From a virus: a DNA stretch of 21,416 nucleotides. Positions 987-21,416 of this stretch are shown here, piece by piece. The stretch's first letter is position 1, and the number at the start of each line of letters is the position of its first letter. The translations under genes were made by a program, and so were the position numbers. Location of the stretch: positions 1-21,416 of IMG/VR virus record IMGVR_UViG_3300037843_000174; one strand, 5' to 3'. Below the pieces are notes generated by a model. It was not told the origin of the DNA. It saw only the letters and a program-made list of their open reading frames with translations, and did no database searches.

Positions 987-1222
987 AACAGGAATCCAAT
1001 ACCTGCAAGAACTGCTGGGCAGCAGCCGGCACGCGACGGTACACGGCAGATCGTACCGTCAAACGTCTTTGCCGCAAGAGCGGGCTAATGGTCGTTGTCA
1101 CACAGCGTGGGGTAGGCTCTTGCGAAGCATGGCAACCGCGACCGGCCAACTCGGACATCGCCAAGCGGGCAAATTCGGATGCAAACCACCGTATCAGCGG
1201 AATCAAAGAGGAGAAATTGTGA
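983..1222 (+). CDS. Small cysteine-containing basic protein
   Basis: This 79-aa protein starts at the ATG at 983, overlapping the previous stop by 4 bases. It has a CKNC pair near residue 8, Cys near residue 30 and another Cys near residue 47, so a zinc site is possible. The rest is basic (many Arg and Lys). Its stop overlaps the GTG start of the large helicase-methyltransferase gene (GTGA), so the two are probably translationally coupled. No family recognised. Confidence 0.6.
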   Translation: MKQESNTCKNCWAAAGTRRYTADRTVKRLCRKSGLMVVVTQRGVGSCEAWQPRPANSDIAKRANSDANHRISGIKEEKL

Positions 1223-4200
1223 GCACGACCGTAGACCTTGCCGCCTATCAGAAGTTCCTTGAAGATAAGGTGTCTATCTCTAAGGACGCCGGCTGCGAAT
1301 GCAAGCTGGAAGACATTCACCCACTTCTGAAGCCGCACCAGAAAGCAATCGTCCAATGGGCAGTCCAAGGAGGACGCCGGGCAATCTTCGCTAACTTTGG
1401 CCTCGGCAAAAGTCTGATCCAGCTGGAAATCTGCCGCATCATCACCAAGCACCTCGGCCCGCAGTCGAAAGCCTTGATCGTGTGTCCCCTCGGCGTCCGC
1501 CAGGAGTTCGCCCACGATGCCGCCATGATCGGACTGCGAACGTGCTTCATTCAGCACATGGACGATCTTCAAAGCCAGGTCAACCAGAAGGAACTGGTAG
1601 ACCTTGGCACGCCGATCTACGTCACGAACTACGAATCGGTACGCAACGGAAAACTCGACCCGCGCGGATTCGATGTAGTGAGCCTGGACGAGGCGGCCAT
1701 CCTGCGCGGTTTTGGATCGACGCTGACCTTTCGTAAGCTCATGGGCCTGTTTGAGGGAACAAGCACATTCCGCTTTGTGGCGACGGCGACCCCGGACCCG
1801 AACGAATACATCGAGCTACTGGCCTACGCGGACTGGCTTGGCGTCATGCCAACAGGCGAGGCTAAGACCAGGTTCTTCAAGCGTGACTCGACTAAGGCCG
1901 ACCATCTGACGTTGCACGCCAACAAGGCGGAAGAGTTCTGGCTATGGGTCAGTACTTGGGCGACGTTCCTGTCCACGCCGAGCGATCTTGGCTACTCGGA
2001 CGAGGGCTACATCCTTCCGCCAATGACGGTGAATTGGCACGAACTGCCGACAAACAACGACACGGCCGCCATCGACCGCGACGGGCAGAAGAAGCTATGG
2101 AAGGACGCCGCCGCCGGTCTATCGCAGGCCGCCGCCGAGAAACGGGACAGCTTGGCGGATCGTATCGCCAAGATGAAGGCGATCATCGCGGAATCTCCGA
2201 ACGAGCACTTCCTGATTTGGTGCGACCTGGAAAAGGAACGGAAAGCGATTCACAAGGCCCTGCCGGAATGCACATCGGTCTACGGCACACAGAAATGGGA
2301 GGAACGCGAGGCCGCCGTCATGGGATTCGCTAACGGTACGATTCCGTATCTATCCTCAAAGGCATCCATGCTGGGGCAGGGGTGCAACTTCCAGAAGCAT
2401 TGCCACCGGGCTATCTTCGTCGGCATCGGCTACAAGTTCGCCTTGTTCGCCCAGGCCATGCACCGCATCTATAGGTTCCTACAAGAGCAGCCTGTCACCA
2501 TCGACATCATCTACACCGAGGCTGAATCCGGCATCCGCGACGTGCTTGAAGCCAAGTGGGAACGGCACAAGAAGCAACTCAGCAAGATGGCCGAGATCAT
2601 CCGCGAGCACGGCCTGGCGTCCGCTTCCAAGATCAAGGCCCTGCAACAAGGCATGGGCATCAAGCGGGTGGAGGAAACCGGAGAGAACTGGCGACTCGTC
2701 AATAACGATACCGTGCTGGAAACGGCAGCCATGAAGGAAGACACGGTATCGTTAATTATCACCAGTATTCCTTTCTCATTCCAATATCAGTACTCCGCAA
2801 ACTACGCGGACTTCGGAGAGAGTGAAACCAACGACGCCTTTTGGGCACAGATGGACTTTCTGACGCCGAACCTGCTCCGCGTGCTTCGCCCCGGCCGAGT
2901 TTGCTGCATCCACGTCAAGGACAGGATCGTACCGGGCGGATTGACCGGCCTTGGATTCCAGACGCTTCATCCATTCCACGCGGAAGCCATTGCCCACTAC
3001 ATGAAGCATGGATTCGCCTTCCTGGGGATGAAGACCGTCACGACGGACGTTGTGCGGGAGAACAACCAGACATACCGGCTAGGCTGGTCCGAACAATGCA
3101 AGGACGGGAGCCGCATGGGTTGCGGAGTGCCGGAATACGTCCTGTTGTTCCGCAAGCCGCCGAGCGATCTATCGAACGGCTACGCGGACGATCCTGTTCT
3201 CAAGAGCAAGCCGGACACGGAGTTCCCGGACGGGCATATCGGCCCCTACGATTACGACGGCGGCAAGGTAGTGCCGGGTACGGGCTACTCGCGGGCGCGC
3301 TGGCAACTTGACGCCCACGGCTACATGCGAAGCAGCGGCAACCGCTTTCTGACGCCGGAAGATATGGACAGCCTGCCGCACGCACAAATCTACCGCCGCT
3401 GGAAAGAAGAGTGCCTTTCGACGGTCTATGACTTCGAGCACCACGTCAACTTAGGCGAGTTGATGGAACGCGACAAGCGGTTGCCATCTACGTTCATGGT
3501 CATGCCGCCGCACAGCCCGCACCCGGACGTGTGGAGCGACGTTGCACGGATGCGGACGCTGAACATGCTCCAAGAGAGAACCGGGCGTGTCATGCACCTC
3601 TGCGTTGCCGTTGGGTCTCTTGTTCTCACGCGGCAGCATGGGTACATCCCAATCGAAACCGTCGTTACTGGAGACGAGGTTTTGACCCACATGGGCCGTT
3701 GGAGAAAAGTAATCGTCAGCCAGAGTACTGGCATACGTGAAACCGTGGAATTGCTGGCACAAGGCGTTCCCGGCTTGAAGTTGACGCCAGACCACAAGCT
3801 ATGGACTCGCAAGGTGAGACAGATTCCTTGGGCGAGAGCCAAACGGCGTCTTGACGCGATCAAGCGTGATCCTCTCTGGGTTGAAGCATCTGAGACGGTG
3901 GGCCATTTCGTCAATCTCAAATTACCTCCAGTCGAGACTCCGCACAACGACAGCATGCATCATTGGTGGATTGTCGGACGCTGGCTTGCCGATGGTCACA
4001 AGGGAGGCCACGAAGGACGCGACGGTCAGGTGTTGAGCTACACGATCAGTTGTGGCTACCATGAGACTGAGTATCTTGTTGAGACACTTGGCGTCCACGC
4101 GGGAGTTCCGCACGATGTTGGCACAGGAATGCAAATCACTCTGCGGGATGAAGATTTCGCAATCCGAAGCATCCTAGCGAAGTGCGGAAGAGGGGCGGCT

Positions 4201-4923
4201 AATAAGCATCTCCCACCGGAAGCATTTACGCTTCCACCCGCCCACGCCAAGATTCTACTTGATGGATACCTGTCAGGGGACGGACATTATTTAGACGAGC
4301 GGAAACGCTTCACAGGTAGTAGCGTTTCCAAGGCGTTACTTCTCGGAATGGCCATGCTTGCCCAGCGGGTCTACGGGGCTATCGCCAGCATCTACCGTGG
4401 GCGACCGGAACGGGAAGCTACGATCCAAGGAAGGACTGTTCACTGTCAGCAGGATTACGCATTCTGCTTCGATGATCCAACTGATAGGCAACTCAGTAGG
4501 GTAACAGTTCCATTTGTCGTCGAAGATGGGGCATGGAAGACCGTTCGATCCGCCGAACCTTCGGAATGCGTCGAAACATGGAATCTACGCGTGGAAGAGG
4601 ACGAGAGCTATACGGTGGAAGGCTGTATTGTCAAGAACTGTCCCCTGCAGGAGGATATCATCAAGCGTTTGATTACGCAATTCACGATGCCAGGGGAAGT
4701 GGTCTATGATCCTTTCGACGGCATCGGGAGTGTGGCGTATTGGGCCGTGAAGCTCAAGCGGTTCGGCATGGGTTGCGAACTGAACGCCAGCTATCACGCC
4801 GACGCCGTGATCTACTGCACGCAGGCGGCATTGAACCGCGACGTTCCGATGCTGTTCGATGCCTTGGAAGAGGAAAAAGAAATCGCCGTGTCCGACTCAG
4901 GCGACCACGGCGGGGAGGAATGA
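1219..4923 (+). CDS. SNF2-type helicase / beta-class DNA methyltransferase fusion, intein-containing
   Basis: The precursor is 1234 aa from a GTG at 1219, chosen because it overlaps the previous stop and follows GAGGAG. The N-terminal half is a superfamily 2 helicase: Walker A FGLGKS at residues 60-65, Walker B-like DEAA at 157-160, TATPDPN (motif III-like) near residue 193, and QAMHRIYR (motif VI-like) near residue 412. The second half is a DNA amino-methyltransferase in beta-class order: TSIPF (motif IV) at 515-519, then a C-terminal AdoMet-binding motif I, DPFDGIGS, from residue 1164. Such fusions occur in phages and probably modify phage DNA against restriction; the specificity is unknown. 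A 346-aa intein (separate entry) interrupts the HLCPLQ motif. Splicing would leave 888 aa. The Ile in TSIPF, in place of the usual Pro, is to my knowledge a variant seen in phage relatives. Confidence 0.9.
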   Translation: MSTTVDLAAYQKFLEDKVSISKDAGCECKLEDIHPLLKPHQKAIVQWAVQGGRRAIFANFGLGKSLIQLEICRIITKHLGPQSKALIVCPLGVRQEFAHDAAMIGLRTCFIQHMDDLQSQVNQKELVDLGTPIYVTNYESVRNGKLDPRGFDVVSLDEAAILRGFGSTLTFRKLMGLFEGTSTFRFVATATPDPNEYIELLAYADWLGVMPTGEAKTRFFKRDSTKADHLTLHANKAEEFWLWVSTWATFLSTPSDLGYSDEGYILPPMTVNWHELPTNNDTAAIDRDGQKKLWKDAAAGLSQAAAEKRDSLADRIAKMKAIIAESPNEHFLIWCDLEKERKAIHKALPECTSVYGTQKWEEREAAVMGFANGTIPYLSSKASMLGQGCNFQKHCHRAIFVGIGYKFALFAQAMHRIYRFLQEQPVTIDIIYTEAESGIRDVLEAKWERHKKQLSKMAEIIREHGLASASKIKALQQGMGIKRVEETGENWRLVNNDTVLETAAMKEDTVSLIITSIPFSFQYQYSANYADFGESETNDAFWAQMDFLTPNLLRVLRPGRVCCIHVKDRIVPGGLTGLGFQTLHPFHAEAIAHYMKHGFAFLGMKTVTTDVVRENNQTYRLGWSEQCKDGSRMGCGVPEYVLLFRKPPSDLSNGYADDPVLKSKPDTEFPDGHIGPYDYDGGKVVPGTGYSRARWQLDAHGYMRSSGNRFLTPEDMDSLPHAQIYRRWKEECLSTVYDFEHHVNLGELMERDKRLPSTFMVMPPHSPHPDVWSDVARMRTLNMLQERTGRVMHLCVAVGSLVLTRQHGYIPIETVVTGDEVLTHMGRWRKVIVSQSTGIRETVELLAQGVPGLKLTPDHKLWTRKVRQIPWARAKRRLDAIKRDPLWVEASETVGHFVNLKLPPVETPHNDSMHHWWIVGRWLADGHKGGHEGRDGQVLSYTISCGYHETEYLVETLGVHAGVPHDVGTGMQITLRDEDFAIRSILAKCGRGAANKHLPPEAFTLPPAHAKILLDGYLSGDGHYLDERKRFTGSSVSKALLLGMAMLAQRVYGAIASIYRGRPEREATIQGRTVHCQQDYAFCFDDPTDRQLSRVTVPFVVEDGAWKTVRSAEPSECVETWNLRVEEDESYTVEGCIVKNCPLQEDIIKRLITQFTMPGEVVYDPFDGIGSVAYWAVKLKRFGMGCELNASYHADAVIYCTQAALNRDVPMLFDALEEEKEIAVSDSGDHGGEE
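3601..4638 (+). other. Intein with LAGLIDADG homing-endonuclease domain
   Basis: This in-frame 346-aa insertion is residues 795-1140 of the helicase-methyltransferase. It begins with Cys795 in CVAVGSLV (block A) and has TPDH with His859 (block B). Two LAGLIDADG-type motifs follow, WIVGRWLADG near residue 917 and LDGYLSGDGH near residue 1014, each with its acidic residue. It ends IVKN, followed by Cys at +1. Removing it joins MHL to CPLQEDI, restoring a motif typical of these methylases, which fixes both splice sites. The penultimate residue is Lys1139 rather than the common His; such exceptions are known in active inteins. The endonuclease would cleave intein-free alleles and spread the element. 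All visible key residues suggest it is active. Confidence 0.92.
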
Positions 4924-7743: not shown

Positions 7744-9162
7744 ATGAAATTCTTTTCCCTGTTCGCAATCGTGCTTTGCTGCAACGTGGCCGGAAGTCTG
7801 GCCCAGCAGCCGGCCCCCGATCATTCGCTCATCGTCAATGGCCAATGGATGCTCGTCCCGGTCCTTCCGACGCCGCCGCTTGCCGCGCCTTGCGGATGCA
7901 AGACTTCCTCTGACGACAATGCCGACATGGCCGAGGCCGTCGCCCGCGGCTTCGGTTCTCGACTGGCCATCGGGCCATTCAAGGAGGCAACCACTGCCGT
8001 CCGCGCATGGCGCGCAAGTGACGGGAACGACCTAAAGAAGTTGCAGGCACGACTTGATCGGACGCCTCGGTTCACGGAGTGTCAGAAGGCCACAATGGCC
8101 TTGATCGCCCTGGAAATGACCAACTCGTTTTCTCCGGGTACGATCCCGCCCCAGGTAATTCAACTGGCGATTCAACTCCAGGCTGCGGCTTGCTCGGCTC
8201 CTCCTGTTCCGACACTCGCACCGATCGGCAAGATTCCGCCCGTTCCGAAGAAGCACGCTACCGGCCTGATCATCCTTCCCGAGAAGACCCGAAACGCCTT
8301 GCACGTTAGGGACGCCTTGACCCACAAGGCATTCCACTCCAAACACGGCGCGATCACGATTCCAAGTAGCCTTGACCTTCGCTCCGGTTGCCCGGCAATC
8401 GAAGACCAGGACGGCGTGGGGACGTGTCACGACCATTCAGGCGTCGATACGGTCTGTTGCGCCAACATTAAGGACGGAAACTTGACGATTTCGCAACCGC
8501 TATCCGTGCAGTACATCGTGGACCTAGATCCGAACGGTGACGGCACTTGCGACGGCGGTGATGCAACCACGATCTTCCAATGGCTCAAACAAGGCAACGG
8601 TATTCCTACCGTCCAATCCTACGGGCCGGAAGATAATGCTTGCAATCAGGGTTGCCAACTCAGTGGTACGGCGTCGGGATTTACGATCCAAGATTGGGGA
8701 TATGCCGGTACGGTCACTGGCCCTGCCGACGTGCAATCTGTCGAGGAATCGCTTGTGACCTACGGCGTGACGAGCGTGTGCATAGGCTGCCCCGACGACT
8801 TCATGAACTACAGCGGCGGAATCTACGTCGGAGACCTGTCGAGTGGCATCGACCATCAAGTCAGTCTCGTCGGCTACAAGATCGACCCCACGGTTTCCGG
8901 CGGCGGATACTTCATCCTCCGCAACTCATGGGGCACCGGCTGGGGCGAGAAAGGATACGCCCGCGTGGCATTCTCCTGCAATGCGACGACCGAGTCCATG
9001 TGGGCTACGGCCAAGAAGGGACAGACCACGGTGGTTCAACCGTTTTCAAGCCCGACACCTTCGGATAGGGTGTTGAAGCTCTATGAGATGGGTAGGAAGA
9101 ACCCGACCCTCGCAAAGAAGGCACTCAAGGCCGCAGAGGACGTTTTCCAGAACGCTCCTTGA
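7744..9162 (+). CDS. Secreted papain-family (C1A) cysteine protease
   Basis: This 472-aa protein starts at the ATG at 7744 behind TTGGAGAAA. Residues 1-20 form a signal peptide (cleavage after SLA). A region of about 190 residues follows that could be a propeptide. The papain-like domain starts at LDLRSGCPAIEDQDG. The oxyanion Gln222 and nucleophile Cys228 (GTCHDHSG) have the six-residue spacing of papain Q19/C25. His371 (DHQVSLVGY) and Asn394 (RNSWGTGWGEKGY) complete the triad. The Trp usually after the catalytic Cys is His here. C1A proteases cut proteins; in a phage this is unusual. Possible roles are envelope or S-layer degradation, an exported virulence-type factor, or virion processing. 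The target is unknown. Confidence 0.88.
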   Translation: MKFFSLFAIVLCCNVAGSLAQQPAPDHSLIVNGQWMLVPVLPTPPLAAPCGCKTSSDDNADMAEAVARGFGSRLAIGPFKEATTAVRAWRASDGNDLKKLQARLDRTPRFTECQKATMALIALEMTNSFSPGTIPPQVIQLAIQLQAAACSAPPVPTLAPIGKIPPVPKKHATGLIILPEKTRNALHVRDALTHKAFHSKHGAITIPSSLDLRSGCPAIEDQDGVGTCHDHSGVDTVCCANIKDGNLTISQPLSVQYIVDLDPNGDGTCDGGDATTIFQWLKQGNGIPTVQSYGPEDNACNQGCQLSGTASGFTIQDWGYAGTVTGPADVQSVEESLVTYGVTSVCIGCPDDFMNYSGGIYVGDLSSGIDHQVSLVGYKIDPTVSGGGYFILRNSWGTGWGEKGYARVAFSCNATTESMWATAKKGQTTVVQPFSSPTPSDRVLKLYEMGRKNPTLAKKALKAAEDVFQNAP

Positions 9163-10302: not shown

Positions 10303-10985
10303 AAACAGCCACTCCGAAAACCAAACGTCGCAAACGGCCAGTCAACGGCCTTTCGACCGAACTCATGGACGCCATGCTCCGTGAGTATACGGAGTGGCAG
10401 TCCCGCGTCCAAGCCGAAGACCCGAATCTACCGGCAACTCTATCAGCGGACGACCTCTACTTCCTTGAATCAGGCCGGATGCCGGTAGACCAGGTTCAAT
10501 CTCTCCGCAAGCGAATCTTTGCCGATCTCGTCAGTCGGGGGTTTTCGGAAGCGGACGTGTGCCAGCGGCTTGTCTTGTCGCATAAGAGCTATTGCAAACT
10601 TGCACTTCGCAGCTTCGGCGTAGACGATCCGAAGCTCGTTCGGGCGCAATGCTCCGCAAGGAACCTTGAAAGGCAAGGGAAGATCAAGGACGAAATCAAT
10701 CGAATGGACGAAATGAGGCAGCAGCGCATAGGGGGAGACCGTAGCTTCACGACTGCCGAACGGGATTCCTACTTCAAACTCATCAAACTCGCCAACGACC
10801 TCGACGAATCGTACCGCAAGTTGCACGCCGCCGATGCACCGGAACAAGTTGAAGTCAAAGAGATCAAACAGTACGACATCACCTTGAACGTCCGGGGCAC
10901 GCGAGAGGAGCTATCCGACATCCTGGAAGGCCAAGTGATCGACGTGCCAGCCCTGCCACCACCGGAGGTTTCCGATGGTAGCTGA
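10299..10985 (+). CDS. Probable terminase small subunit; start codon uncertain (possible AUA)
   Basis: The frame ends at 10985, overlapping the large terminase start, and encodes a basic N-terminus (KTKRRKRP), an HTH-like segment (GFSEADVCQRLVLSHKSYCKLAL) and a Lys/Glu-rich helical region, as in DNA-recognising small terminases. Position directly before terL supports this. The start is unclear. The frame is open back to 10095, but that overlaps two membrane protein genes. At 10299 an ATA lies exactly where the same junction sequence at 5443-5459 has ATG, behind AAGGAACCGAAG. ATG at 10365 has no Shine-Dalgarno and would drop the basic tail; TTG at 10224 is another option. From 10299 the protein is 228 aa. 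Confidence 0.68.
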   Translation: METATPKTKRRKRPVNGLSTELMDAMLREYTEWQSRVQAEDPNLPATLSADDLYFLESGRMPVDQVQSLRKRIFADLVSRGFSEADVCQRLVLSHKSYCKLALRSFGVDDPKLVRAQCSARNLERQGKIKDEINRMDEMRQQRIGGDRSFTTAERDSYFKLIKLANDLDESYRKLHAADAPEQVEVKEIKQYDITLNVRGTREELSDILEGQVIDVPALPPPEVSDGS

Positions 10986-12306
10986 AAGGAAATCAGTCGA
11001 GACTTATCCAAAGCAGAAGGCATTCTGCTTGGCAGATTACTTCTCCGTGGCAATGACAGGCGGCGTGGGTAGCGGAAAAAGTCGTAGTGGCGCGATTCGG
11101 TTGCTAACTCGGTCCAAGCCGCATTGTCACTACATGGTTGTGGCCCCGACATACAAGATGATGGATAAGTCTACGTTCTCGATCTTCCAGGAATACGCGG
11201 AACAATTCGGCCTATGGAGACGCGGCTGCTACAACGAAACGAAGAAGACCGCACAACTCGCCAATGGGGCAACCTACTATTTCTGTTCAGCGGAAGACCC
11301 TGATGGATTGCGGGGACCGAGCCTCAGTGAACTATGGGGCGATGAAATGCAGGGAACCAAGGAGGAAGCCTACACGATATTGAAGGGGCGACTCCGCGAA
11401 GGCGGCAAGCGTGGCAAGAGCCAATGGACGTTTACCCCAGGCAGCCCCGACCACTGGACGAGCAAGCACTTCATTAAGAATTGCACGATTGAGGCATACG
11501 AGCAGATAAATACTAAATTCGGCCCGGCCAGGATCAAGTGCCTGAAAAACCCGGAAGGCGACAGCGTTTTCTTCCGGGCGTCCCTCAAAGAGAATACATT
11601 CATAGAGCCGTCATTCTACGCCTCGCTTCTACGCGACTACGCTGCTTCACCCATGCGTATCCTACGCGAGCTTGAAGGCGAGTGCGTCTACATGGAAGGG
11701 GCCGAGTGGCAGGCGGAATACTTCGATAACCTCTGGTTCAAAGAATGGCCGCCAATGGCACAGGGAGGAATCCGCGTCGTGTCGCTCGATTCGTCGCTTG
11801 GCAAGGAAGGCAAGGGCGACGACTACGCGGCCTACGTCAAGTGCCTATGGCAGAACGGGATCATGTACCTTGACGCCGATATGAGGAAGCGAGAGGACTC
11901 ATCCAAGATATGCCACAACGGCGTGGAAATTTACCGCGACTTCAACCCGCATTACTTCGTGGTTGAGGAAGAAATGGGGATGAATCTGCTCATCGCGGAA
12001 ATGCACAAGATTGCCGACGAACAGAAAGTAGTAATGGCTATCACGCCAATGGGGACGGACAAGATTCCAAAGGAGCAACGGATTCGCCGGTTGACGCCGT
12101 ATGTTTCTCGCAGGCAGTTTCGCTTCAAGGCCAATTCGCCGGGGGCGAAATTGCTAGTCGAGCAGATGATGGCTTTCCCACTTGCTGAAAATGACGATGG
12201 GGTAGACTCCCTGGAATACGCGGTTCGCTGTCTTGTTCTCGCAACCACGGGACAGATTTTGCGTCCACGACTGATAGCCTACAATATGATGCAGCAAGCG
12301 GTATAA
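10975..12306 (+). CDS. terL: Terminase large subunit
   Basis: This 443-aa protein starts at the ATG at 10975, overlapping the small terminase by 11 bases, with GGAGG upstream. The ATPase domain has Walker A GGVGSGKS at residues 29-36 and a Walker B-like WGDEMQ near residue 122. The C-terminal RNase H-like nuclease shows its acidic residues in VVSLDSS, in FVVEEEMG and in DDGVDSLEY near the end. TerL docks on the portal, pumps phage DNA into the prohead and cuts the concatemer. The length is at the short end of the family. The last codons overlap a TATAAT that precedes the first CRISPR-like repeat. Confidence 0.92.
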   Translation: MVAERKSVETYPKQKAFCLADYFSVAMTGGVGSGKSRSGAIRLLTRSKPHCHYMVVAPTYKMMDKSTFSIFQEYAEQFGLWRRGCYNETKKTAQLANGATYYFCSAEDPDGLRGPSLSELWGDEMQGTKEEAYTILKGRLREGGKRGKSQWTFTPGSPDHWTSKHFIKNCTIEAYEQINTKFGPARIKCLKNPEGDSVFFRASLKENTFIEPSFYASLLRDYAASPMRILRELEGECVYMEGAEWQAEYFDNLWFKEWPPMAQGGIRVVSLDSSLGKEGKGDDYAAYVKCLWQNGIMYLDADMRKREDSSKICHNGVEIYRDFNPHYFVVEEEMGMNLLIAEMHKIADEQKVVMAITPMGTDKIPKEQRIRRLTPYVSRRQFRFKANSPGAKLLVEQMMAFPLAENDDGVDSLEYAVRCLVLATTGQILRPRLIAYNMMQQAV

Positions 12307-12307
12307 T
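12302..12307 (+). promoter_or_regulatory. Perfect -10 hexamer ahead of the first CRISPR-like repeat
   Basis: TATAAT spans the terL stop codon. Six to seven bases downstream is the expected start site, near 12314, which is the first base of the solitary repeat. I see no convincing -35 hexamer at 16-18 bases upstream and no extended -10 TG. This is therefore only a candidate promoter for a repeat-initiated RNA. Confidence 0.4.
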
Positions 12308-12313
12308 TGCACA

Positions 12314-12345
12314 GTCGCCCGCCGCGTGCGGGCGTGGATTGAAAC
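12314..12345 (+). repeat. Solitary type I-C CRISPR-like repeat unit, copy 1
   Basis: The 32-base unit is GT, then the arm CGCCCGC, loop CGCGT, arm GCGGGCG, then the 11-base tail TGGATTGAAAC. The arms form a perfect 7-bp stem. Size, hairpin and tail match type I-C CRISPR repeats, whose RNAs are cut by Cas5d at the 3' base of the stem to leave an 11-nt 5' handle. No second repeat follows at array spacing, and there are no cas genes. It lies between terL and the portal gene, 46 bases before the portal ATG, on the same strand. I read it as a phage-borne solitary repeat. It is not a terminator because no U-tract follows. Confidence 0.9.
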
Positions 12346-12391
12346 CACCACGGGCAACGGCCTACGCAGCAATGGGACAGGCGGTGTAACT

Positions 12392-14686
12392 ATGAACATC
12401 CTATCTCGCATTACGGAAGTCTTTCGCGGAAAGCCGGAACGACCGGCCCCGCCGCCGGTATCCTTCGTCACACCGGAAGTATTCCGGGACATTAACCGTT
12501 TGAAGCAGGAATGCACCTGGCTTTCCCGCCTCTTGGAAGACGACATCACCGGCGAAATAGGCTTCACCAACGGGCTTGATGGTACGGACTTCTGGGGCCA
12601 GCAATCGCAAGTAGGCGACTTCCGCGACGGGAGCTACCGATTCGCTTACGATATGTGCATGTTCCGACCGTGCTACGGGGCCGCGTTCTACATCAATGAG
12701 GTTCAGCACCGTCGCATCAGGGCCAAGTCTAGGGCTTTCTGTTCGATCAATCCCTACTCGCACGGAATCCTTCATTCGCTGAAAACGCACGTCATCGGCA
12801 AGGGCCACAACTGGACGGCCGGGTGGCGGAATCCAAACTCCAAGGGTCCAGAGGATATGCTGACGCGAGTGCAAGCGGACCTGGACGAGTTCTACGCCGC
12901 CGGCTACCGCGAACACCAGAAAGAATCCATCGAACGCCGCAGCCGCGACGGTGAATTCTTCCGCCGCTTCAAGGTTCAAGGGGGACGCTTGCGGGTGTCT
13001 TTCGTTGAACCGCTGAACGTCTGGACGCCGCCGGGATCATCGGAGACTACCAACTGCTACTTCGGTATCCAATTCGACGGCGACGATTACGAGAACCCAC
13101 AAGGCTACTACATTCGCCGCACGAACTATCTCGGTGCACAGACGAAAGCACTCGAAGGATGGCAGCGGATGGTCTCTGCCGACGAAATCCAGCACGTCAA
13201 AAACAACGTCGATAAGGGGACACCACGCGGAATCCCGGACACCTACTGGACACAGGCCCGGCTAGAGCAATCCTTGAAGACCTTGAAGGCATCGGGCAAC
13301 CTCGTCCAATTCAGGAACAAGGTCGGCTTGATCCGGCAGCATGTTGACGCGCTAGCCGGAAGCATCCAGCCGCTTCTGTCGCAGAATGCCGTCACGACGA
13401 TCCACACGCCGACAGGACGGCAGGATACGCTTTGGGATTTGCCAGACGCAGCAGTTGTCGATGCCTCGAATCAGACGCAGTACACCTTCCCGTCTCAGAA
13501 TCTTGAGATCAAGGAAACCATAGCGGCGATCCAGGCCGAGCTTCAATCCGTCGCTACGTCGATGGGTTTGGCCGATTACATGGTGTCAGGTACATTAGGG
13601 GCAGGTGCTTCCTACAGTGCGAGCATGGTAGCAGAAGGGCCGGTAGTCAAGACATTTGAGGATCATCAGTACGATACCATCGACGCCGATACTTTGGTCG
13701 TTGCAAAGATCATCGACGTAGGCATTGAGTACGGCCGCTACCCGGAGGAAGCACGCGAACTAGTCCGCGTGGAAATGAGGGGACCGCCACTTGGACGACT
13801 TGGAATCCAGGCCGCCCAGGAGATGCAGATCGAAAGCCAATGCGGCATAACGTCCAAGCGTACATGGCGAATGCTTATAGGCCGTGACGACGAAACCGAG
13901 ACGGCGAATCTTGCCGCTGAGAAGGAAGCTGAAGCAAAGACGGAAGCCGAGCTTGCGAAGAAGTACCCGCAGCCTATGCCGACGCCGGGAGTGAACGGCA
14001 ACGGCAAGCCTGGCACAAACGGCCAGCAGAATGGAACCGGACCCAGGAACCGCATGACGCCAAATGCGCGGCCGTTCTCTGCCGATCAAGAGGGACGGCA
14101 GATGCAGCGGGCCAGCGGGGCCACAGTCGAGGAAGCGTTCGACACGTGGTTCCAATCGCGGTTACAAGAGAGTAGTCACGACCCGGCAGGGCACGACAAG
14201 CCTACCGAATCAGAATTAGCAATGGCGACGGTTTGGATTACCGACGATTTCCTTGCGAAAATCAAGTCCGAAATTCTTTCCCTGCCACGAATGAAAGAGC
14301 CTATCGACCCGGCAACGGCAGGGGAGTACGAACCTGGCGTAAAAGGCTTACGGCTTGGCGTCGTCGATAACCAGACTGTATGGGCGGTTGACATGCGGGA
14401 GATGTCTGTCCGCCACGATTCCGCCGACACGATTGTAGCGGGCAACTCGGAACGCTGGCCTTTCTTGCCACCTGAGATCATCTTCGTGGATTGGTCCTTT
14501 GTCGCCTATGATCGTAATTGCGACCTATTGCACGAATGCTGCGAGTTTGTTATGATGCGGGATGGGAAGTTCAGCTACAGCCTCGCTCATAAACTATCCA
14601 ACTACTTTGAACGCGAGTGGCTTTTTGTCTTGCGGCCTGAATTGAAAGTCTTGGCTGAAGCAGTAGCGGCTACGGAAACAGAATGA
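12392..14686 (+). CDS. Portal protein with C-terminal HExxE-type extension
   Basis: This 764-aa protein is read from the ATG at 12392; the frame is open back to a GTG inside the CRISPR-like repeat, but that start has no support. It follows terL and contains portal-like segments in residues 1-540 (for example RRSRDGEFFRRF, VKNNVDKGTPRGIPDTYW, and GLADYMVSGTLGAGASYS), so it is probably a lambda-type portal, the dodecameric DNA gate. A low-complexity linker rich in Pro, Gly and Asn (about residues 530-560) leads to an added domain of about 150 aa. That domain ends with LLHECCEFVMM (His714, Glu715, Glu718) and SLAHKLSNYFERE, a putative metal-site pattern that I have seen as separate small phage proteins. 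The function of the extension is unknown. Confidence 0.85.
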   Translation: MNILSRITEVFRGKPERPAPPPVSFVTPEVFRDINRLKQECTWLSRLLEDDITGEIGFTNGLDGTDFWGQQSQVGDFRDGSYRFAYDMCMFRPCYGAAFYINEVQHRRIRAKSRAFCSINPYSHGILHSLKTHVIGKGHNWTAGWRNPNSKGPEDMLTRVQADLDEFYAAGYREHQKESIERRSRDGEFFRRFKVQGGRLRVSFVEPLNVWTPPGSSETTNCYFGIQFDGDDYENPQGYYIRRTNYLGAQTKALEGWQRMVSADEIQHVKNNVDKGTPRGIPDTYWTQARLEQSLKTLKASGNLVQFRNKVGLIRQHVDALAGSIQPLLSQNAVTTIHTPTGRQDTLWDLPDAAVVDASNQTQYTFPSQNLEIKETIAAIQAELQSVATSMGLADYMVSGTLGAGASYSASMVAEGPVVKTFEDHQYDTIDADTLVVAKIIDVGIEYGRYPEEARELVRVEMRGPPLGRLGIQAAQEMQIESQCGITSKRTWRMLIGRDDETETANLAAEKEAEAKTEAELAKKYPQPMPTPGVNGNGKPGTNGQQNGTGPRNRMTPNARPFSADQEGRQMQRASGATVEEAFDTWFQSRLQESSHDPAGHDKPTESELAMATVWITDDFLAKIKSEILSLPRMKEPIDPATAGEYEPGVKGLRLGVVDNQTVWAVDMREMSVRHDSADTIVAGNSERWPFLPPEIIFVDWSFVAYDRNCDLLHECCEFVMMRDGKFSYSLAHKLSNYFEREWLFVLRPELKVLAEAVAATETE

Positions 14687-14856
14687 CACGCACTATTCAG
14701 ACTTCTGGGATATACCGGATTCGTAACACGGTAAACAACCGTGCGTACTACGGAAGTTCCGTGAACATGCACCAGCGATGGCTGCGGCACCGAACCGACT
14801 TAATTCCGCTTGGCCGCCGTGCCTTCCTTGAACGCCGTGGAGTGCTTCACGCATGA
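14683..14856 (+). CDS. Mini GIY-YIG-like protein (57 aa)
   Basis: The ATG at 14683 overlaps the portal stop (ATGA), and the TGA overlaps the next ATG. Residues 8-33 follow the start of a GIY-YIG nuclease domain: SGIYRIRNTVNNRAYYGSS then QRWLRH, that is GIY, YYG in place of YIG, and the catalytic-type Arg. The domain normally continues for about 50 more residues to a metal-binding Glu; here it ends after GVLHA. It is therefore either a degenerate remnant of a homing nuclease or a miniature derivative. It is unlikely to cut DNA by itself. Confidence 0.65.
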   Translation: MTRTIQTSGIYRIRNTVNNRAYYGSSVNMHQRWLRHRTDLIPLGRRAFLERRGVLHA

Positions 14857-15080
14857 CCATCCAGCCCGGCAGTCTCTACCAAGTTTCGATATCTGACCGT
14901 GGAAGCGGAACGGTCAAGGCTGTTCGCACGACCGGCGACGGCATGGTATGCAGCATCATCGTGCATGGGAGGTTCAAGAACCGCGTGCCGAACAGTCAGG
15001 TCAGGATCGACGGCGACCATTTATGTTTCCGCCCAGAAGGCAAGGGAGTTACCGTGAAACCCTTGAAATTGGAACCTTAA
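14853..15080 (+). CDS. Small hypothetical beta-rich protein
   Basis: This 75-aa protein starts at the ATG at 14853, overlapping the previous stop (ATGA). Alternating polar and hydrophobic residues (SLYQVSISDRGSGTVKAV, then MVCSIIVHGRF) suggest a small beta-barrel. It ends with a Lys/Pro-rich tail. It has no motif that I recognise. Its position between portal and head genes suggests a virion assembly or accessory role, but this is only inference. Confidence 0.6.
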   Translation: MTIQPGSLYQVSISDRGSGTVKAVRTTGDGMVCSIIVHGRFKNRVPNSQVRIDGDHLCFRPEGKGVTVKPLKLEP

Positions 15081-15097
15081 CACGAAAGGAAAGTGAA

Positions 15098-15478
15098 GTG
15101 CGTTTTGAACCGCCCTTAGACAGCGTGATCGTTGAGCGTGAGCTTGTACACAAGAGTCCCGAAGGCATCACGTACCCGCAACCGCTTGTCCAGTGGTACG
15201 GCCGCATCGTCGCCGCTGGACCGGGGATGCTTCGGACGATGCAAGCAGTGGTACGTTTAATCGACCCGCCAGGCTGCGATCTTGACCGTTTCCCCATGCA
15301 GTACAAGGTGGGCGACCTGGTTATCTGCCCGCCCGGCATGACGGCGTTTCCAGAGGAGATTCCGGTCCCGAAGTCCGGCAACACCCGCCTGTTCGTGTGC
15401 AGTGAGCGGCAGTTGCTTGCCAAGGTCATCTTTGAGGACGGAGATAAGCAACCAGCCAGCAACGGAAAGGCGGGGTAG
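15098..15478 (+). CDS. GroES-like co-chaperonin
   Basis: The 126-aa product starts at a GTG at 15098 behind AAAGGAAA. It has the order of a GroES chain: PLDSVIVERE at the N-terminus, a middle loop (SPEGITYPQP), GRIVAAGPG near residue 40, YKVGDLVICPPG near residue 70, and a final beta strand LFVCSERQLLAKV. GroES caps GroEL for protein folding in the cytoplasm. Phage T4 gp31 is a GroES replacement needed to fold the capsid protein. Location between portal and capsid genes fits the same job here. It is longer than bacterial GroES (about 95 aa), with extra residues at the C-terminus and in the middle. Confidence 0.78.
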   Translation: MRFEPPLDSVIVERELVHKSPEGITYPQPLVQWYGRIVAAGPGMLRTMQAVVRLIDPPGCDLDRFPMQYKVGDLVICPPGMTAFPEEIPVPKSGNTRLFVCSERQLLAKVIFEDGDKQPASNGKAG

Positions 15479-15530
15479 GCTGTGAGTGTGGCGTCCCCAT
15501 TGAGCAGATTCACCCGGAGGTCAAGGAGTA

Positions 15531-15932
15531 ATGGCGAAGAATCGAATGGAAGAACTTCTCTCACGGCCATTGCGCACCGCCGACGAATTGCATGCCGCCG
15601 AGGCAGGCGAACAGTCTGGCGGCGTGCCGTGGGCTGAACCATCGGAACAAGAGGGGCAGACTCCCAATCCGACTCCGCTACGGGAATCTGAAGACCGGCT
15701 ATACCGTTTCCCAGAGCCGCCAGCGGCAATCACGCCTATCCTGTCCACGAACAACCGCGAGAAGTTGGAACGTGCCAAGGCTCATATTGAGAAGCTATTT
15801 CTACTCGCGGCGGCAGGATTGATTGAAGGCGTTCACTTCTATGGCAAGACGAGTATTGAAGTGTCTTGGCAGGATGGTTCCGCCCAGCAGATAAGCACGT
15901 CAATCTCTGCCAAGGACCAAATGCTGCAATAG
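15531..15932 (+). CDS. Hypothetical protein
   Basis: This 133-aa protein starts at the ATG at 15531 behind GGAGG and AAGGAG. The N-terminal half is polar and probably disordered (Glu, Pro, Gly and Ser rich). The C-terminal half has a helix (NREKLERAKAHIEKLFLLAAA) and a short beta-rich part (VHFYGKTSIEVSWQDGSAQQ). I recognise no family. It ends 60 bases upstream of the second CRISPR-like repeat. A head or DNA-accessory role is only a guess from location. Confidence 0.65.
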   Translation: MAKNRMEELLSRPLRTADELHAAEAGEQSGGVPWAEPSEQEGQTPNPTPLRESEDRLYRFPEPPAAITPILSTNNREKLERAKAHIEKLFLLAAAGLIEGVHFYGKTSIEVSWQDGSAQQISTSISAKDQMLQ

Positions 15933-15991
15933 CGAACAATGGCCAATGACCTAGTTCTATCGAAGATCAATTCTGCCCGTGGTGTTCTTGC

Positions 15992-16023
15992 GTCGCCCGT
16001 CGTGTGCGGGCGTGGATTGAAAC
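15992..16023 (+). repeat. Solitary type I-C CRISPR-like repeat unit, copy 2
   Basis: The unit is GT, arm CGCCCGT, loop CGTGT, arm GCGGGCG, tail TGGATTGAAAC, again 32 bases. It differs from copy 1 at two positions, both C to T: the last base of the 5' arm, which becomes a G-U wobble so the stem survives, and one loop base. The 11-base handle is identical. No array neighbour exists. It stands 14 bases before the ATG of the sigma factor gene, so its hairpin would lie in that gene's leader and could affect its translation. Confidence 0.9.
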
Positions 16024-16037
16024 AATAAGGGGACAGG

Positions 16038-16718
16038 ATGCCCACAGCTACACGGAATATCGACACGGAAGCCTCACTTTGGCGGGCCTATTGGCATGGA
16101 CGCTGCGATGATGCGTTCAATAGGCTCGTCAACTTCTATCTGCCGTGGGTGAAGCAACTAGCCTTCAATCAGGCCGCCAAGTTGCCTGATAGCGTCGATT
16201 GGCAAGACCTGTTTCAAGACGGCTCGATAGCCCTATTGGATTGCATCCGACGATTCGACAAGCGGCGTGGCTTGAAGTTTAAGACGTTCGCCATGCGACG
16301 GATCGCAGGGTCGTTCTCTGACGGGCTGCGAAATATGGATTGGGTTCCTAGACTCGTCCGACAACGGAAAGAACCCGTCGTTGTCATGCGTCAGGAGAAG
16401 ATTCTCTACAACGAAAACGCCGACGAGAAACAGGATGCTTCCCACCCAAAAGTATACGACCGCAAGACAATGGAGTTACGGGACGAAGTGCGGCGTGCCT
16501 TGCGTGGATTGCGAAAGAACCAGCGATTATCCGTGATTCTCTACTTTTTGGAAGGTCTAAGCATGAAGGAAGCCGCGGAATCCATCGGCGTTTCCGAGTC
16601 CAGAGTCAGCCAGATAATCAGTGAAACCATCGTATTTATCCGTTCCAGGGAGAGAATTTCCGTCCAAGACCACGGAAATATAGGGAATCATCGAAAATCT
16701 GCTATTGCGATTCCATGA
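16038..16718 (+). CDS. Phage-encoded sigma-28-like (FliA/WhiG type) sigma factor
   Basis: This 226-aa protein starts at the ATG at 16038. The leader GGGGACAGG is close to the start. Region 2 (about residues 10-105) follows the FliA/SigB type: LWRAYWHGRCDDAF, LVNFYLPWVKQLA, LPDSVDWQDLFQDGSIALLD, RFDKRRGLKFKTFAMRRI and DWVPRLVRQR (separate fragments). Region 4 (about residues 155-210) has LRKNQRLSVILYFLEGLSMK and the recognition helix ESIGVSESRVSQI. The stretch between is short and polar, so region 3 seems missing. It would redirect host RNA polymerase to phage promoters, probably late ones. Its gene is the only clear transcription regulator among the head genes. It is preceded by a CRISPR-like repeat and followed by a terminator. 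Confidence 0.88.
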   Translation: MPTATRNIDTEASLWRAYWHGRCDDAFNRLVNFYLPWVKQLAFNQAAKLPDSVDWQDLFQDGSIALLDCIRRFDKRRGLKFKTFAMRRIAGSFSDGLRNMDWVPRLVRQRKEPVVVMRQEKILYNENADEKQDASHPKVYDRKTMELRDEVRRALRGLRKNQRLSVILYFLEGLSMKEAAESIGVSESRVSQIISETIVFIRSRERISVQDHGNIGNHRKSAIAIP

Positions 16719-16733
16719 GAATTGCCGTAGTAT
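16705..16733 (+). promoter_or_regulatory. Weak sigma70-like promoter candidate
   Basis: TTGCGA (16705-16710) and TAGTAT (16728-16733) have a 17-base spacer, each matching four of six consensus bases. It overlaps the end of the sigma factor gene and would start RNA about 25-30 bases ahead of the terminator at 16769, giving a possible attenuated leader for the head genes. Chance occurrence is quite possible. Confidence 0.25.
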
Positions 16734-16768
16734 AGAAGAGAACGTGAGGTACTTGGCAACGACCAACG

Positions 16769-16796
16769 GCCCCGCGAACCACCCGGTTTGCGGGGC
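16769..16796 (+). terminator. Rho-independent terminator after the sigma factor gene
   Basis: A 12-bp GC-rich stem (arms 16769-16780 and 16785-16796, with one G-U pair), a 4-base loop ACCC and a U-rich tail TATTTTCGTTT form a classical intrinsic terminator. It lies 50 bases after the sigma factor stop and 23 bases before the next gene. It therefore separates the portal/sigma unit from the capsid genes, which then need their own promoter or readthrough. Confidence 0.88.
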
Positions 16797-16819
16797 TATT
16801 TTCGTTTAGGGGCCGAATT

Positions 16820-18367
16820 ATGCCTTGGTCTGCTAAAGATGCTGAGGAAAAGACTTCCAAAGCCGACACCCCAGCCAAGAAGAAAAAGTGGTCGGAAATC
16901 GCCAATGAAGCCCGCAGGAAGGCCATTGCGGACGGAAAGAGCGAATCGGAAGCTGACGCATCGGCAATCAAGATAGCGAACGCAGCGGTAGGGAACATGA
17001 AGGAATCCGATCAATCCGGTAACGGCAGGCTCCAGGAATCAACCATCTGGCAGTCCAAGCCGGTTGAAGTCGTCACCGAAGACAACGGCGAAACGACCGT
17101 CTTAAAGGACGTGCTGATCCTCGGCAAGACCAGCCGCAACCGCGTCGATTATCTGGACGAGGCATTGCAAACCGGCCACAGGCTGTTTGAGAGTTGCAAT
17201 TCCTTCGCCGGTCACGACCGCGATGGTCGGGGGCAAGGAGTCCGCGATAACATTGGCGTCATGCGAAACCCGCGTGTAGCATCCGATGGAATCCACGCCG
17301 ATCATGCCATGCCGACAGCGGATCCTCTCACGCCGAAACTCGTTTGGCGGGCCAAGCATGCGCCGAAGAATATCGGCTACTCACCCGATTTCGATTGTCA
17401 TTGGAACCTTGATTCCAAGGGCCGTAAGCAGGTCTACCGTATCGACCGTGTTCTATCCGCAGATGTGGTTATGCGACCCGGAACAACCAACGGCATGAAA
17501 GAGGACGAGGAATCCATTCCCACCGACCAGCAGCCGCTTGCGGAATCGGTCCTGTCTGCCGGCGACAATCTCCGTTCCATCATGCTTGCGGACGGCACGC
17601 TCGAAGAGAAACGCGGCAGGCTCTTGGAAGCGGTACTCGACCTTCACGGAGAATTGATTGAAGGCGAGATTGCCGACGAACTCGCCAAGGATGCGCCGCG
17701 TCGACGAATGCGGGAAGTTGCTGACGTTGCCTCACGCAAGCTAGATGAAGCCATGTGGGACAGCAGTAAGTACCCGCAGCACCATGCCAAGCGGAACCGG
17801 CAAATCGCCGTTCTCAAGGATCATCTCAAGGAACTTTCGTCCATCGAATGTAACTGCCCCGACTGTTGCGGCGGCAAACCCAAACTCACAGAGGAGACTT
17901 CCGATATGGAATTCAAAGACATCACGGTCGAAACACTGACCAAAGAACGACCCGATCTTGTCGCCAAGCTCACCGGGACCGACGAACACGGCCGCTTGAC
18001 CGAAGAGGTCAAGACGACCAAGGCCCAACTCGAAGCGGCACAGGCGGAAGTGACCAGACTTCAAGGACTCGAAGCCGGTCGCCTCAAGGAAGCGGAAATC
18101 GCCGCCGAACTCAAGACCGCAGGCATCGACGCCACGACCGCCTCGACGGCACCGGCCACGAAGGGCCTCTTCGGCCGCTTGCGGGAGCAGTTGCTTTCCG
18201 CAGCCGACAAGACCATTCGGGCCGCGATCATCCAGGACTACAAGCCGGCGTTCAGCGGCCGTGTCCAAGAGGCAAGGATGCCTGGCCCAATGGAGGAGCT
18301 ACGCGATCCGAACGCCGGCCAGCGCGGCACGCTCGCACCCGAAGCGAAGAAGAAGTATTTCGGGTAA
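16820..18367 (+). CDS. ChaB-like / head maturation protease / scaffold fusion
   Basis: This 515-aa protein starts at the ATG at 16820 behind AGGGG. Three parts can be seen. Residues 1-58 (MPWSAKDAEEKT, KKKKWSEIANEARRKA, ASAIKIANAAV) are the ChaB-like segment often fused to phage capsid assembly proteins. Residues about 78-225 resemble a head maturation protease: NIGYSPDFDCHW then RIDRVLSADVVMRPGTT, near the usual end of this domain. Residues about 370-515 include a coiled coil (EEVKTTKAQLEAAQAEVTRL) as in internal scaffolds. In HK97-type phages the scaffold directs prohead assembly and the protease then digests it. I cannot identify the catalytic residues with confidence. Position ahead of the capsid gene supports the call. 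Confidence 0.75.
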   Translation: MPWSAKDAEEKTSKADTPAKKKKWSEIANEARRKAIADGKSESEADASAIKIANAAVGNMKESDQSGNGRLQESTIWQSKPVEVVTEDNGETTVLKDVLILGKTSRNRVDYLDEALQTGHRLFESCNSFAGHDRDGRGQGVRDNIGVMRNPRVASDGIHADHAMPTADPLTPKLVWRAKHAPKNIGYSPDFDCHWNLDSKGRKQVYRIDRVLSADVVMRPGTTNGMKEDEESIPTDQQPLAESVLSAGDNLRSIMLADGTLEEKRGRLLEAVLDLHGELIEGEIADELAKDAPRRRMREVADVASRKLDEAMWDSSKYPQHHAKRNRQIAVLKDHLKELSSIECNCPDCCGGKPKLTEETSDMEFKDITVETLTKERPDLVAKLTGTDEHGRLTEEVKTTKAQLEAAQAEVTRLQGLEAGRLKEAEIAAELKTAGIDATTASTAPATKGLFGRLREQLLSAADKTIRAAIIQDYKPAFSGRVQEARMPGPMEELRDPNAGQRGTLAPEAKKKYFG

Positions 18368-18418
18368 TCCGGCTGCAAACCCGACAACAAATCAATCCAC
18401 ACTTTTGGAGAAATAACC

Positions 18419-19864
18419 ATGTCGAACCAGTTCAGGTATATGAAGGGCGACACGAAAAGTGAAATCTTTCGTTGCCCGCCCAAATCCGTCATGCAGGGCA
18501 CGCAGGCCGTTCCGTTCCTTGGAAGCACAACCGTCGTGTTCTGCATCCGACGCGGCGAATTGCTTTTCCTCGACCTCATCAGCGGCTGCGTCTACCCGGC
18601 GTGGCTCTTGTCCTACACCGGAAACAGCGTGGGGGCCACGACCGCAGCCGGTTGGCAATCCGCTTTCGCCGCCGTCTTCGTCGGCGTGGCGGAAGAGAAG
18701 GTCGGGCTTGCCCCCGGCGAATTCTCTCCGAACCCGAGCCTGATGTATCAGGACGCCATCAAGGTTGCGACGGCCGGCGTGTGGGAGTACGATTGCCCGA
18801 ACCAGATTTTCCCGAGCTTCGTCACTCCCCTGGGAATCGCGGCCAATGCCAACGGAATCTGCAATTCGCAGTACGTCAATGCCACGTCCACTGTCAACGA
18901 CGCCCAGACGGTCGATGCACTCTACGGGGCGAACACGACAACCACCAACACGGTCGCGGCCACAGTCACGACCATCCCTGTCGCAAGCGGGGCGGGAATC
19001 GCCAACGGCAGCGTGATCGAGGTTTCGACCACCGGAAGCGCGGCAACGACCGTTACAGCAAACGTCAACACTGTCATTCCGGCCAGCGGAACCGGCGTGG
19101 CAGGCACGTCCATAGGAAGCGCCTTCATCCCGATTCTCACCGGAACCGGCATCGGACCTGGAACGACCTTGACCGTTGCGACCACCACTCCGGCAGGAGT
19201 GGAGGAAGTCTATGTCACGGCCGTTTCCGGCGTCCTTGCCAGCACTACGCTCGAATACGCGATCAGCGCAAGTCAGACGACGCTCAGCGTTACCAGCATC
19301 CCATCTGGCTTGGCCATTGGTTGTGCATTGCTGATCGGCACCGAATTGATGGTCGTCACTGGGTTCAATCCGGCCGCACAGCCGTATCCGACAATCACAG
19401 TCGGAACCAGAGGATCGGCCGGAACCGCGCAGGGCTTTGGAAGCACCGCAGCTACAGCCGCAGCGGCCGCCGCCGTCACCGTCTATCCGGTTCTTACCGT
19501 TATCCGTGGTTACAACCAAACCACGGCTGGCACGATTGCGGCTTCCGCGCCGGTTACGCCAGTCTCCACGCCTCCTGAGCAGATGCTCGTCACGGCCGGC
19601 GGCGGAACAACGAGTCTGACCGTCACCCGTGGATGGAACAACACGGGAACCTACGGCGGCGGGTCCGGGATCGTCGGAACTGGCTACGCCATCGCAAACG
19701 GGGCCATCGTCACGGCAATGAGCACGAACATGCTCCAGCGGATCGGCGTTGTCAATCCCTCTTGGGGAATGAACCGCCAAGTGGAAAACGGCCAGCAACA
19801 GAACCGGGTGTGCATCACCATCAAGCCGACGATCATCGAAGGCGGCATCCCCGTTTCGGCCTAA
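18419..19864 (+). CDS. Putative virion (decoration-like) protein with internal repeats
   Basis: This 481-aa protein starts at the ATG at 18419 behind TTGGAGAAA. The ends are ordinary (residues 1-165 and about 440-481), and the middle is very rich in Thr, Ala, Gly and Val with predicted beta strands. Within it, ELMVVTG then TITVGTRGSAGT, and later EQMLVTA then SLTVTRGWNNT, are two copies of a motif E-x-M-x-V-T followed by T-V-(x)-T-R-G; a third related stretch is TTIPVASGAGIANGSVIEV. Similar repeats are seen in phage surface proteins. The gene lies between scaffold and capsid genes, so a head decoration or adhesion role is likely but not proven. Confidence 0.7.
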   Translation: MSNQFRYMKGDTKSEIFRCPPKSVMQGTQAVPFLGSTTVVFCIRRGELLFLDLISGCVYPAWLLSYTGNSVGATTAAGWQSAFAAVFVGVAEEKVGLAPGEFSPNPSLMYQDAIKVATAGVWEYDCPNQIFPSFVTPLGIAANANGICNSQYVNATSTVNDAQTVDALYGANTTTTNTVAATVTTIPVASGAGIANGSVIEVSTTGSAATTVTANVNTVIPASGTGVAGTSIGSAFIPILTGTGIGPGTTLTVATTTPAGVEEVYVTAVSGVLASTTLEYAISASQTTLSVTSIPSGLAIGCALLIGTELMVVTGFNPAAQPYPTITVGTRGSAGTAQGFGSTAATAAAAAAVTVYPVLTVIRGYNQTTAGTIAASAPVTPVSTPPEQMLVTAGGGTTSLTVTRGWNNTGTYGGGSGIVGTGYAIANGAIVTAMSTNMLQRIGVVNPSWGMNRQVENGQQQNRVCITIKPTIIEGGIPVSA

Positions 19865-20410: not shown

Positions 20411-21416
20411 ATGAAACCCGCAATCGACATCGGCCGCATGTTCCGCATGGCCGTCCAACAGGAAGCGGCGGAACGCGGATACCGCGGCCGGTTGAGCGAA
20501 GAGTTTATCGAGGAAACGGAAACCTTTCACGGCTTCCGCGAAAACTCTCTCGCCTTGAACCGGCACCAGCACCAGAACATTCGCATTCCCGGCAAGTCGC
20601 CCCAAGTCCTCTTGGAGGATATGGGTGGCGTCAGCATCCGCGAGATCGCAGAAGAGACGATCTTGGAACGCGACGGTAGCCCGATCGGACGCAGCCGCGT
20701 CCTCGAACTGTTCCACCCGGCGGACCAGACTCGCCTCTTGGAACGCGAGATCGAACGATCCATGCTCGCCGGCCGGTTGCGTGAAGCCGGGGCGGAAACG
20801 ACCGCAATGGACTTCACGATGTTCCAAATGCTCGTCGGCCAACTGCTCATCAATTCGACCCTCAAGGGATTCGAGCACGAGGACTTCATTCTGTCCAAGG
20901 CAGCCGGCATCTACCCCACGGAGTTTGTCACCGGCGAAGTCGTTCCCGGCATTTCGACGCCGCTCGTCAAGGACACGATGGGGCCAACTCCCGGTCAGAC
21001 CGGGCCCGTGAAGAATACGCTGCTCCATAAGCCTGGCGAGACGTACCGGCAGGCATCGGCTGCGGAGAACTACATCCGCTTGCCGGCCACCGAGGAACAC
21101 GGCCTCATCATCGGACTCGACAAGACGGCCGTGTATGCAGACCGCACGGGCATGGTCTCCAAGATCGCGGGCGACATCGGGGAGGAACTGGCAGCCGAGA
21201 AGGAGATCAACGGCCTCGACATGCTCATCGGCGTTACGAATCTGATTGCACCGTACACCGAGAAGTATGCGTGGGACGACGCGGACATCTCCATCGACCC
21301 GTATCAGGCGGGCAACACGGCGTTGAACAATGGTACGGGACAGTTGGCGAAGACCTACCCAAATCGCCCATTCCCATTCGTCAACGAAGTGGACAACAAC
21401 GCCCTGAACAACTGGC
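20411..21416 (+). CDS. Probable HK97-fold major capsid protein, 3'-truncated by window edge
   Basis: The frame runs from the ATG at 20411 (CAGGAG upstream) to the last base of the window without a stop; 335 residues are visible. The N-terminal 130 residues are charged and helical (several Glu/Arg-rich stretches), like a delta-domain or N-arm that is removed on maturation. The later part includes EDFILSKAAGIYPTEFV, a long loop with TPGQTGPVKNT, and helices such as KIAGDIGEELAAEKEIN, which fit a spine-helix region. Order after the scaffold/protease and decoration-like genes, plus length, make the major capsid protein the best call. No signature motif proves it. Confidence 0.72.
   Translation, partial: MKPAIDIGRMFRMAVQQEAAERGYRGRLSEEFIEETETFHGFRENSLALNRHQHQNIRIPGKSPQVLLEDMGGVSIREIAEETILERDGSPIGRSRVLELFHPADQTRLLEREIERSMLAGRLREAGAETTAMDFTMFQMLVGQLLINSTLKGFEHEDFILSKAAGIYPTEFVTGEVVPGISTPLVKDTMGPTPGQTGPVKNTLLHKPGETYRQASAAENYIRLPATEEHGLIIGLDKTAVYADRTGMVSKIAGDIGEELAAEKEINGLDMLIGVTNLIAPYTEKYAWDDADISIDPYQAGNTALNNGTGQLAKTYPNRPFPFVNEVDNNALNNW

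Follow-up and report, generated by a model that had tools for sequence, protein, structure and literature searches.

Why does a CRISPR-like repeat stand directly in front of a phage sigma factor gene? We approached this question in the whole 21,416-nt stretch of virus record IMGVR_UViG_3300037843_000174 (here called the window), in which all genes called by a codon-usage gene caller run in the same direction. The sigma gene (16038-16718, + strand) encodes a 226-aa factor of the sigma-70 family, with regions 2 and 4 recognizable (Pfam Sigma70_r2 and Sigma70_r4, 1.4e-12 and 3.2e-10; PHROG 351). That it is a late factor, as originally labelled, we infer from its location among head genes. Further upstream on the same strand are the genes for the terminase large subunit (10975-12306; Pfam and PHROGs) and the portal protein (12392-14686; Pfam Phage_portal_2, PHROG 21). 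Several small genes without assigned function lie between portal and sigma gene, including a 133-aa gene (15531-15932, + strand; no Pfam or PHROGs match) that immediately precedes the repeat. The regions at 16820-18367 and 20411-21415 have counterparts 3' of the portal gene in Planctomycetota prophages.

The original prediction described a repeat unit of 15992-16037 as the sigma leader. A type I-C-like repeat of 32 nt is present there, but the repeat proper stops at 16023 (copy 2, GTCGCCCGTCGTGTGCGGGCGTGGATTGAAAC, 15992-16023, + strand), and the sequence bears out that it ends 14 nt before the sigma ATG at 16038. This copy lies in a 105-nt gap (15933-16037), 59 nt behind the upstream gene. A solitary sister unit (copy 1, 12314-12345, + strand) occupies the 85-nt gap between the terminase and portal genes (12307-12391) and starts 7 nt past the terminase stop. 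The copies are direct repeats, 3,678 nt apart and identical at 30/32 positions. There is no third copy in the window, where the next-best match reaches only 20/32, and the presence of two copies is therefore not due to chance. Placement wholly within gaps is possible at 436 of 21,385 positions, and the chance that two random 32-mers would both be so placed, as the two copies are, is about 4 in 10,000. A search against Rfam gave no match.

Both copies are predicted to fold alike into a 7-bp stem with a 5-nt loop, and the two differences between them amount to the replacement of a G-C by a G-U pair and one loop base. Cutting by the Cas5d of B. halodurans takes place at the foot of the repeat hairpin and produces tags of 11 nt (5') and 21 nt (3') (PMC3890593). 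For copy 2, whose stem and loop span 15994-16012 (+ strand), the cut would be expected after 16012, the 3' base of the stem. In its native context the copy 2 stem has a predicted mean pair probability of about 0.95-0.98, and that of copy 1 is lower, at 0.74-0.86, chiefly because the outermost pair is lost. Both copies retain the stem and a complete 3' tail.

To find the source of these units, 84,980 species genomes were scanned with a pattern permitting C or T at both variable positions. Three places matched, every one of them an array whose spacers measure 33-36 nt. Two belong to Planctomycetota MAGs (L007 and L008) and adjoin genes that we read by eye as cas7, cas4, cas1 and cas2; the third belongs to a MAG with the label Bacillota (L006). 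Copy 1 is identical to the repeats of the Bacillota-labelled array (32/32), and the Planctomycetota array repeat is one base off each window copy (copy 2, 31/32 to both arrays). An exact copy 2 was found in no array among the 84,980 genomes, one of its bases being unmatched by known arrays. Judged by these matches, the window units are copies of a type I-C CRISPR repeat. As originally proposed, the sigma leader appears to contain a Cas5d substrate, which we base on the intact stem and 3' tail, the array matches and the stem predicted in context. The spacers of the matching arrays showed no match to the window above 11 exact bases.

The host of the phage probably belongs to the Planctomycetota, a candidate link that rests on the matching I-C loci in this phylum and on the terminase relatives that also occur there. 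These relatives were present in 26 of 392 evenly sampled Planctomycetota genomes, with identities of 36-41% in the best and up to 46% in a short match; the repeat itself was found in this sample only in the one genome already identified. Terminase relatives also occur in 79 other viral contigs, and 91 terminase-related loci were compared in total (79 viral and 12 from genomes). Many of these loci also carry the portal gene and the head genes that follow it. Both the sigma gene and the I-C repeat (mismatches allowed) are absent from all 91, several of which lie on short contigs, so that the absence is weak evidence. The only relative of the sigma gene in viral contigs came from the same virus (99.99% identical), and no DNA relatives were found among reference phages. 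A second contig with both units is likewise the same virus, at 99.99% over 9,444 bases, and therefore carries no evolutionary information. To date, the sigma gene and the repeat units are known from this virus only. A lone repeat identical to copy 1 was seen on another phage contig of 64.8 kb (L002:3142-3173, - strand), near a gene for a single-strand DNA binding protein and with no tRNA nearby, hinting at hosts that share this repeat.

To see how such repeats are placed in general, we surveyed 80 distinct lone repeats among the matches listed for the general I-C pattern in viral contigs, taking those that stand outside arrays with 150 nt or more between them and the locus ends, and including both units of this virus. 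Genes in these loci were called with a codon-usage caller written for the purpose, which returned sensible genes for the window. Among these listed matches, 56/80 lone repeats were intergenic where about 12 were expected, and between same-direction genes 40 were in sense against 10 in antisense (P = 2e-5). It follows that lone I-C repeats work, if at all, as RNA inside operons. The start codon that follows, in contrast, was no nearer than expected by chance: within the listed set the median distance was 63 nt versus 74 nt for random gap positions (P = 0.34), and 33% versus 34% lay within 30 nt of a start, so that lone repeats were neither concentrated at leaders nor closer to them. The 14-nt spacing before the sigma gene is therefore unremarkable. 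Within their gaps the listed repeats were shifted towards the stop codon of the upstream gene (KS P = 0.001, 40 gaps; P = 0.026 in 29 short gaps), part of which may be explained by the space that a ribosome-binding site requires. Viral lone I-C repeats, as far as the listed matches go, thus obey a simple rule: sense orientation in operon gaps with no leader preference.

Some further features emerged from the survey. Structural genes made up 8/10 annotatable genes downstream of the listed lone repeats, but also 7/9 control genes from the same loci, and we therefore saw no enrichment signal. AAAC directly follows the repeat (…GATTGAAAC-AAAC) in 10/80 listed cases (L009, L010, L015, L019, L029, L032, L034, L035, L070 and L124), as against 0/99 I-C array spacers of the fetched loci; both window units lack it. 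One 50-kb contig, IMGVR_UViG_3300031673_000079 (L015 and L019), carries three identical lone I-C repeats, and possession of several units by one phage is therefore not unique to the window.

Some solitary repeat units have a known function: inhibition of CRISPR-Cas has been demonstrated for nine, among them RacrIC1 of type I-C (PMC10651486). RacrIC1 is co-transcribed with acrIC5, just behind which it lies in a Bifidobacterium pseudocatenulatum prophage, and in the case of RacrIF1 most inhibition came from the fragment 5' of the cut, which carries a long Cas7 filament (PMC10651486). Both window units match a known CRISPR repeat with 90% identity or more over 90% or more of its length, are intergenic and have no full or partial repeat within 100 bp. 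They resemble RacrIC1 in being lone intergenic I-C repeats that are operon-borne and follow an upstream gene at short distance, 7 nt (copy 1) and 59 nt (copy 2) as compared with 11 nt. Unlike RacrIC1, which was tested experimentally and follows an anti-CRISPR gene, they are candidates known from sequence, and they are two, located in the head-gene region with one of them preceding a sigma factor gene. With the SRUFinder units (PMC10651486) they share a single host-like repeat with no second one nearby. No Cas protein was seen among the proteins scanned around the units, which comprise part of the ORFs of the window in an incomplete record. The window units differ from the SRUFinder set in being operon-borne, with no sigma-70-type promoter predicted nearby.

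We consider it likely that both units are solitary type I-C repeat units that serve as candidate RNA anti-CRISPRs, i.e. Racr-like decoys. Both would be transcribed in sense within the one-way operon mRNA, and host Cas5d would bind each hairpin and cut at its base, as the intact stem and tail suggest. Cas5d, and perhaps Cas7, would then be trapped on the products, as with RacrIF1 and RacrIC1, leaving fewer working I-C complexes; by analogy, each unit would yield an mRNA fragment with a Cas5d-bound hairpin at its end. The decoy reading is favoured by the exact or one-base matches to I-C array repeats, two of them in Planctomycetota, the phylum in which the terminase relatives also occur. It is further favoured because stem and 3' tail are kept and both units lie wholly in gaps, and because lone I-C repeats among the listed matches are intergenic and sense-oriented, as an RNA function requires. 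The location 5' of the sigma gene is probably incidental, since this gap is among the few with room for 32 extra bases. A phage with two I-C decoy repeats would join a proven anti-CRISPR strategy.

Some observations weaken the decoy reading, namely that no array spacer matches the phage, that copy 2 occurs in no known array and that the units are absent from the 91 loci. No sigma-70-type promoter was found in 10500-18500, although the promoters of the host group may differ; expression of the units would thus be with the operon, which is possibly late for an anti-CRISPR. Each unit is followed by the phage's own ribosome-binding site and gene start, so that a guide derived from this sequence would have its match in the phage itself. 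The motif of type I-C is TTC. The site after each unit is flanked by the repeat itself (AAC) rather than by TTC, and self-attack is therefore not expected.

The alternative that survives best, though we regard it as unlikely, is that the units are inert relics, acquired by chance from host arrays and without present function. Their lack of conservation in the 91 related loci is consistent with this, as is the base of copy 2 that is absent from known arrays. However, mere relics would not readily account for two copies that are both in sense and in gaps, that keep stem pairing and a complete tail and that differ only by one loop base and by a G-U in place of a G-C pair, nor for the sense bias in the wider set of lone I-C repeats among the matches listed.

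A more far-reaching alternative was that the sigma leader acts as a switch: binding or cutting by Cas5d would raise or lower sigma translation, and later phage genes would be expressed differently in hosts with I-C immunity. Host Cas5d would then be a sensor through which the amount of sigma factor, and perhaps of portal protein, is altered and the phage gene programme changed under CRISPR-Cas. This would be a phage gene switch run by the host's own CRISPR processing enzyme; to our knowledge none has been described, and a brief literature search found none. Copy 2 does end only 14 nt from the ATG, and a cut at the stem base would yield a 25-nt leader that retains the ribosome-binding site. In the predicted fold, moreover, base pairing between the ribosome-binding site and an upstream arm around ATTCTGCCC encloses the hairpin, and the cut would separate the two arms. 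This fold gives the most attractive model for a switch, but the model received no support: the site needed as much energy to open when the upstream arm was shuffled (z = -0.02 for copy 2, -0.46 for copy 1), and the mean over 22 further repeat leaders among the listed matches was z = -0.02. Hiding of the ribosome-binding site by an arm 5' of the hairpin, although seen in the fold, is thus no better than with shuffled sequence. Also against a switch are the distances of the listed lone repeats to start codons, which are no shorter than chance, and the downstream genes, since 0/28 others examined at the listed loci matched a sigma family. Nor do any of the 91 terminase-related loci, several on short contigs, keep sigma gene and repeat together. 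We therefore found no support for the predicted Cas control, the position of copy 2 being what random placement within a short intergenic stretch of a one-way operon would give and the site not being specially hidden. A Cas-sensing role for the host enzyme appears improbable, and a Cas5d-sensitive sigma leader, an idea drawn from position alone, is doubtful to the same degree.

More improbable still is that the units are boundary or recombination sequences, which would mark a moved 3.6-kb block or recombine with host CRISPR arrays. The units are direct repeats 3,678 nt apart, and recombination with arrays has been suggested for solitary repeat units, as cited in PMC10651486. The block between them, however, contains the portal gene, whose place behind the terminase is kept in relatives that lack the repeat, and there is no additional flank similarity. 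The original prediction also suggested that repeat and leader had moved as one piece, given that the octamer GGGACAGG follows both copies. We confirmed the octamer at 12374-12381 and 16030-16037, its only two occurrences in the window. One-piece transfer was nevertheless rejected, because GGGACAGG starts 29 nt past the end of copy 1 and 7 nt past that of copy 2, and the other flanks cannot be aligned. A common 8-mer is found in 3.4% of random 46-nt pairs drawn from the window. Both octamers sit within G-rich stretches just 5' of start codons, the second in the likely ribosome-binding region of the sigma gene (16027-16037, + strand), and the pair is better read, from its sequence setting, as similar ribosome-binding regions than as a joint transfer.

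That the units form a mini-array, or specify a crRNA against a competitor virus, is extremely improbable: virus-borne CRISPR mini-arrays exist and likewise bring host-like repeats into a virus genome (reviewed in PMC11656645), but these comprise at least two repeats at spacer-length separation, whereas the reading fails here because there is no second repeat within 3.6 kb and hence no repeat-spacer-repeat unit, and each unit is followed by the phage's own ribosome-binding site and gene start instead of a foreign spacer.

Beyond the repeat units, the window holds three other features. A likely intein of about 346 aa (3601-4638; N-terminus CVAVGSLVLTRQ, CIVKN at the end before C; weak Hint match) is located within the methyltransferase portion of a gene (1219-4923) in which helicase and methyltransferase are fused; on the 64.8-kb phage contig, helicase and methyltransferase are separate genes without the intein candidate. 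The region 7744-9162 encodes a phage-borne papain-family cysteine protease (Pfam Peptidase_C1, 3.5e-30; no PHROGs match). Directly 3' of the sigma gene is a strong terminator-like hairpin (16768-16797; 13 pairs, T-rich tail). It ends 22 nt upstream of the ATG at 16820, where the next gene starts, and might thus serve as a leader attenuator for the genes that follow.
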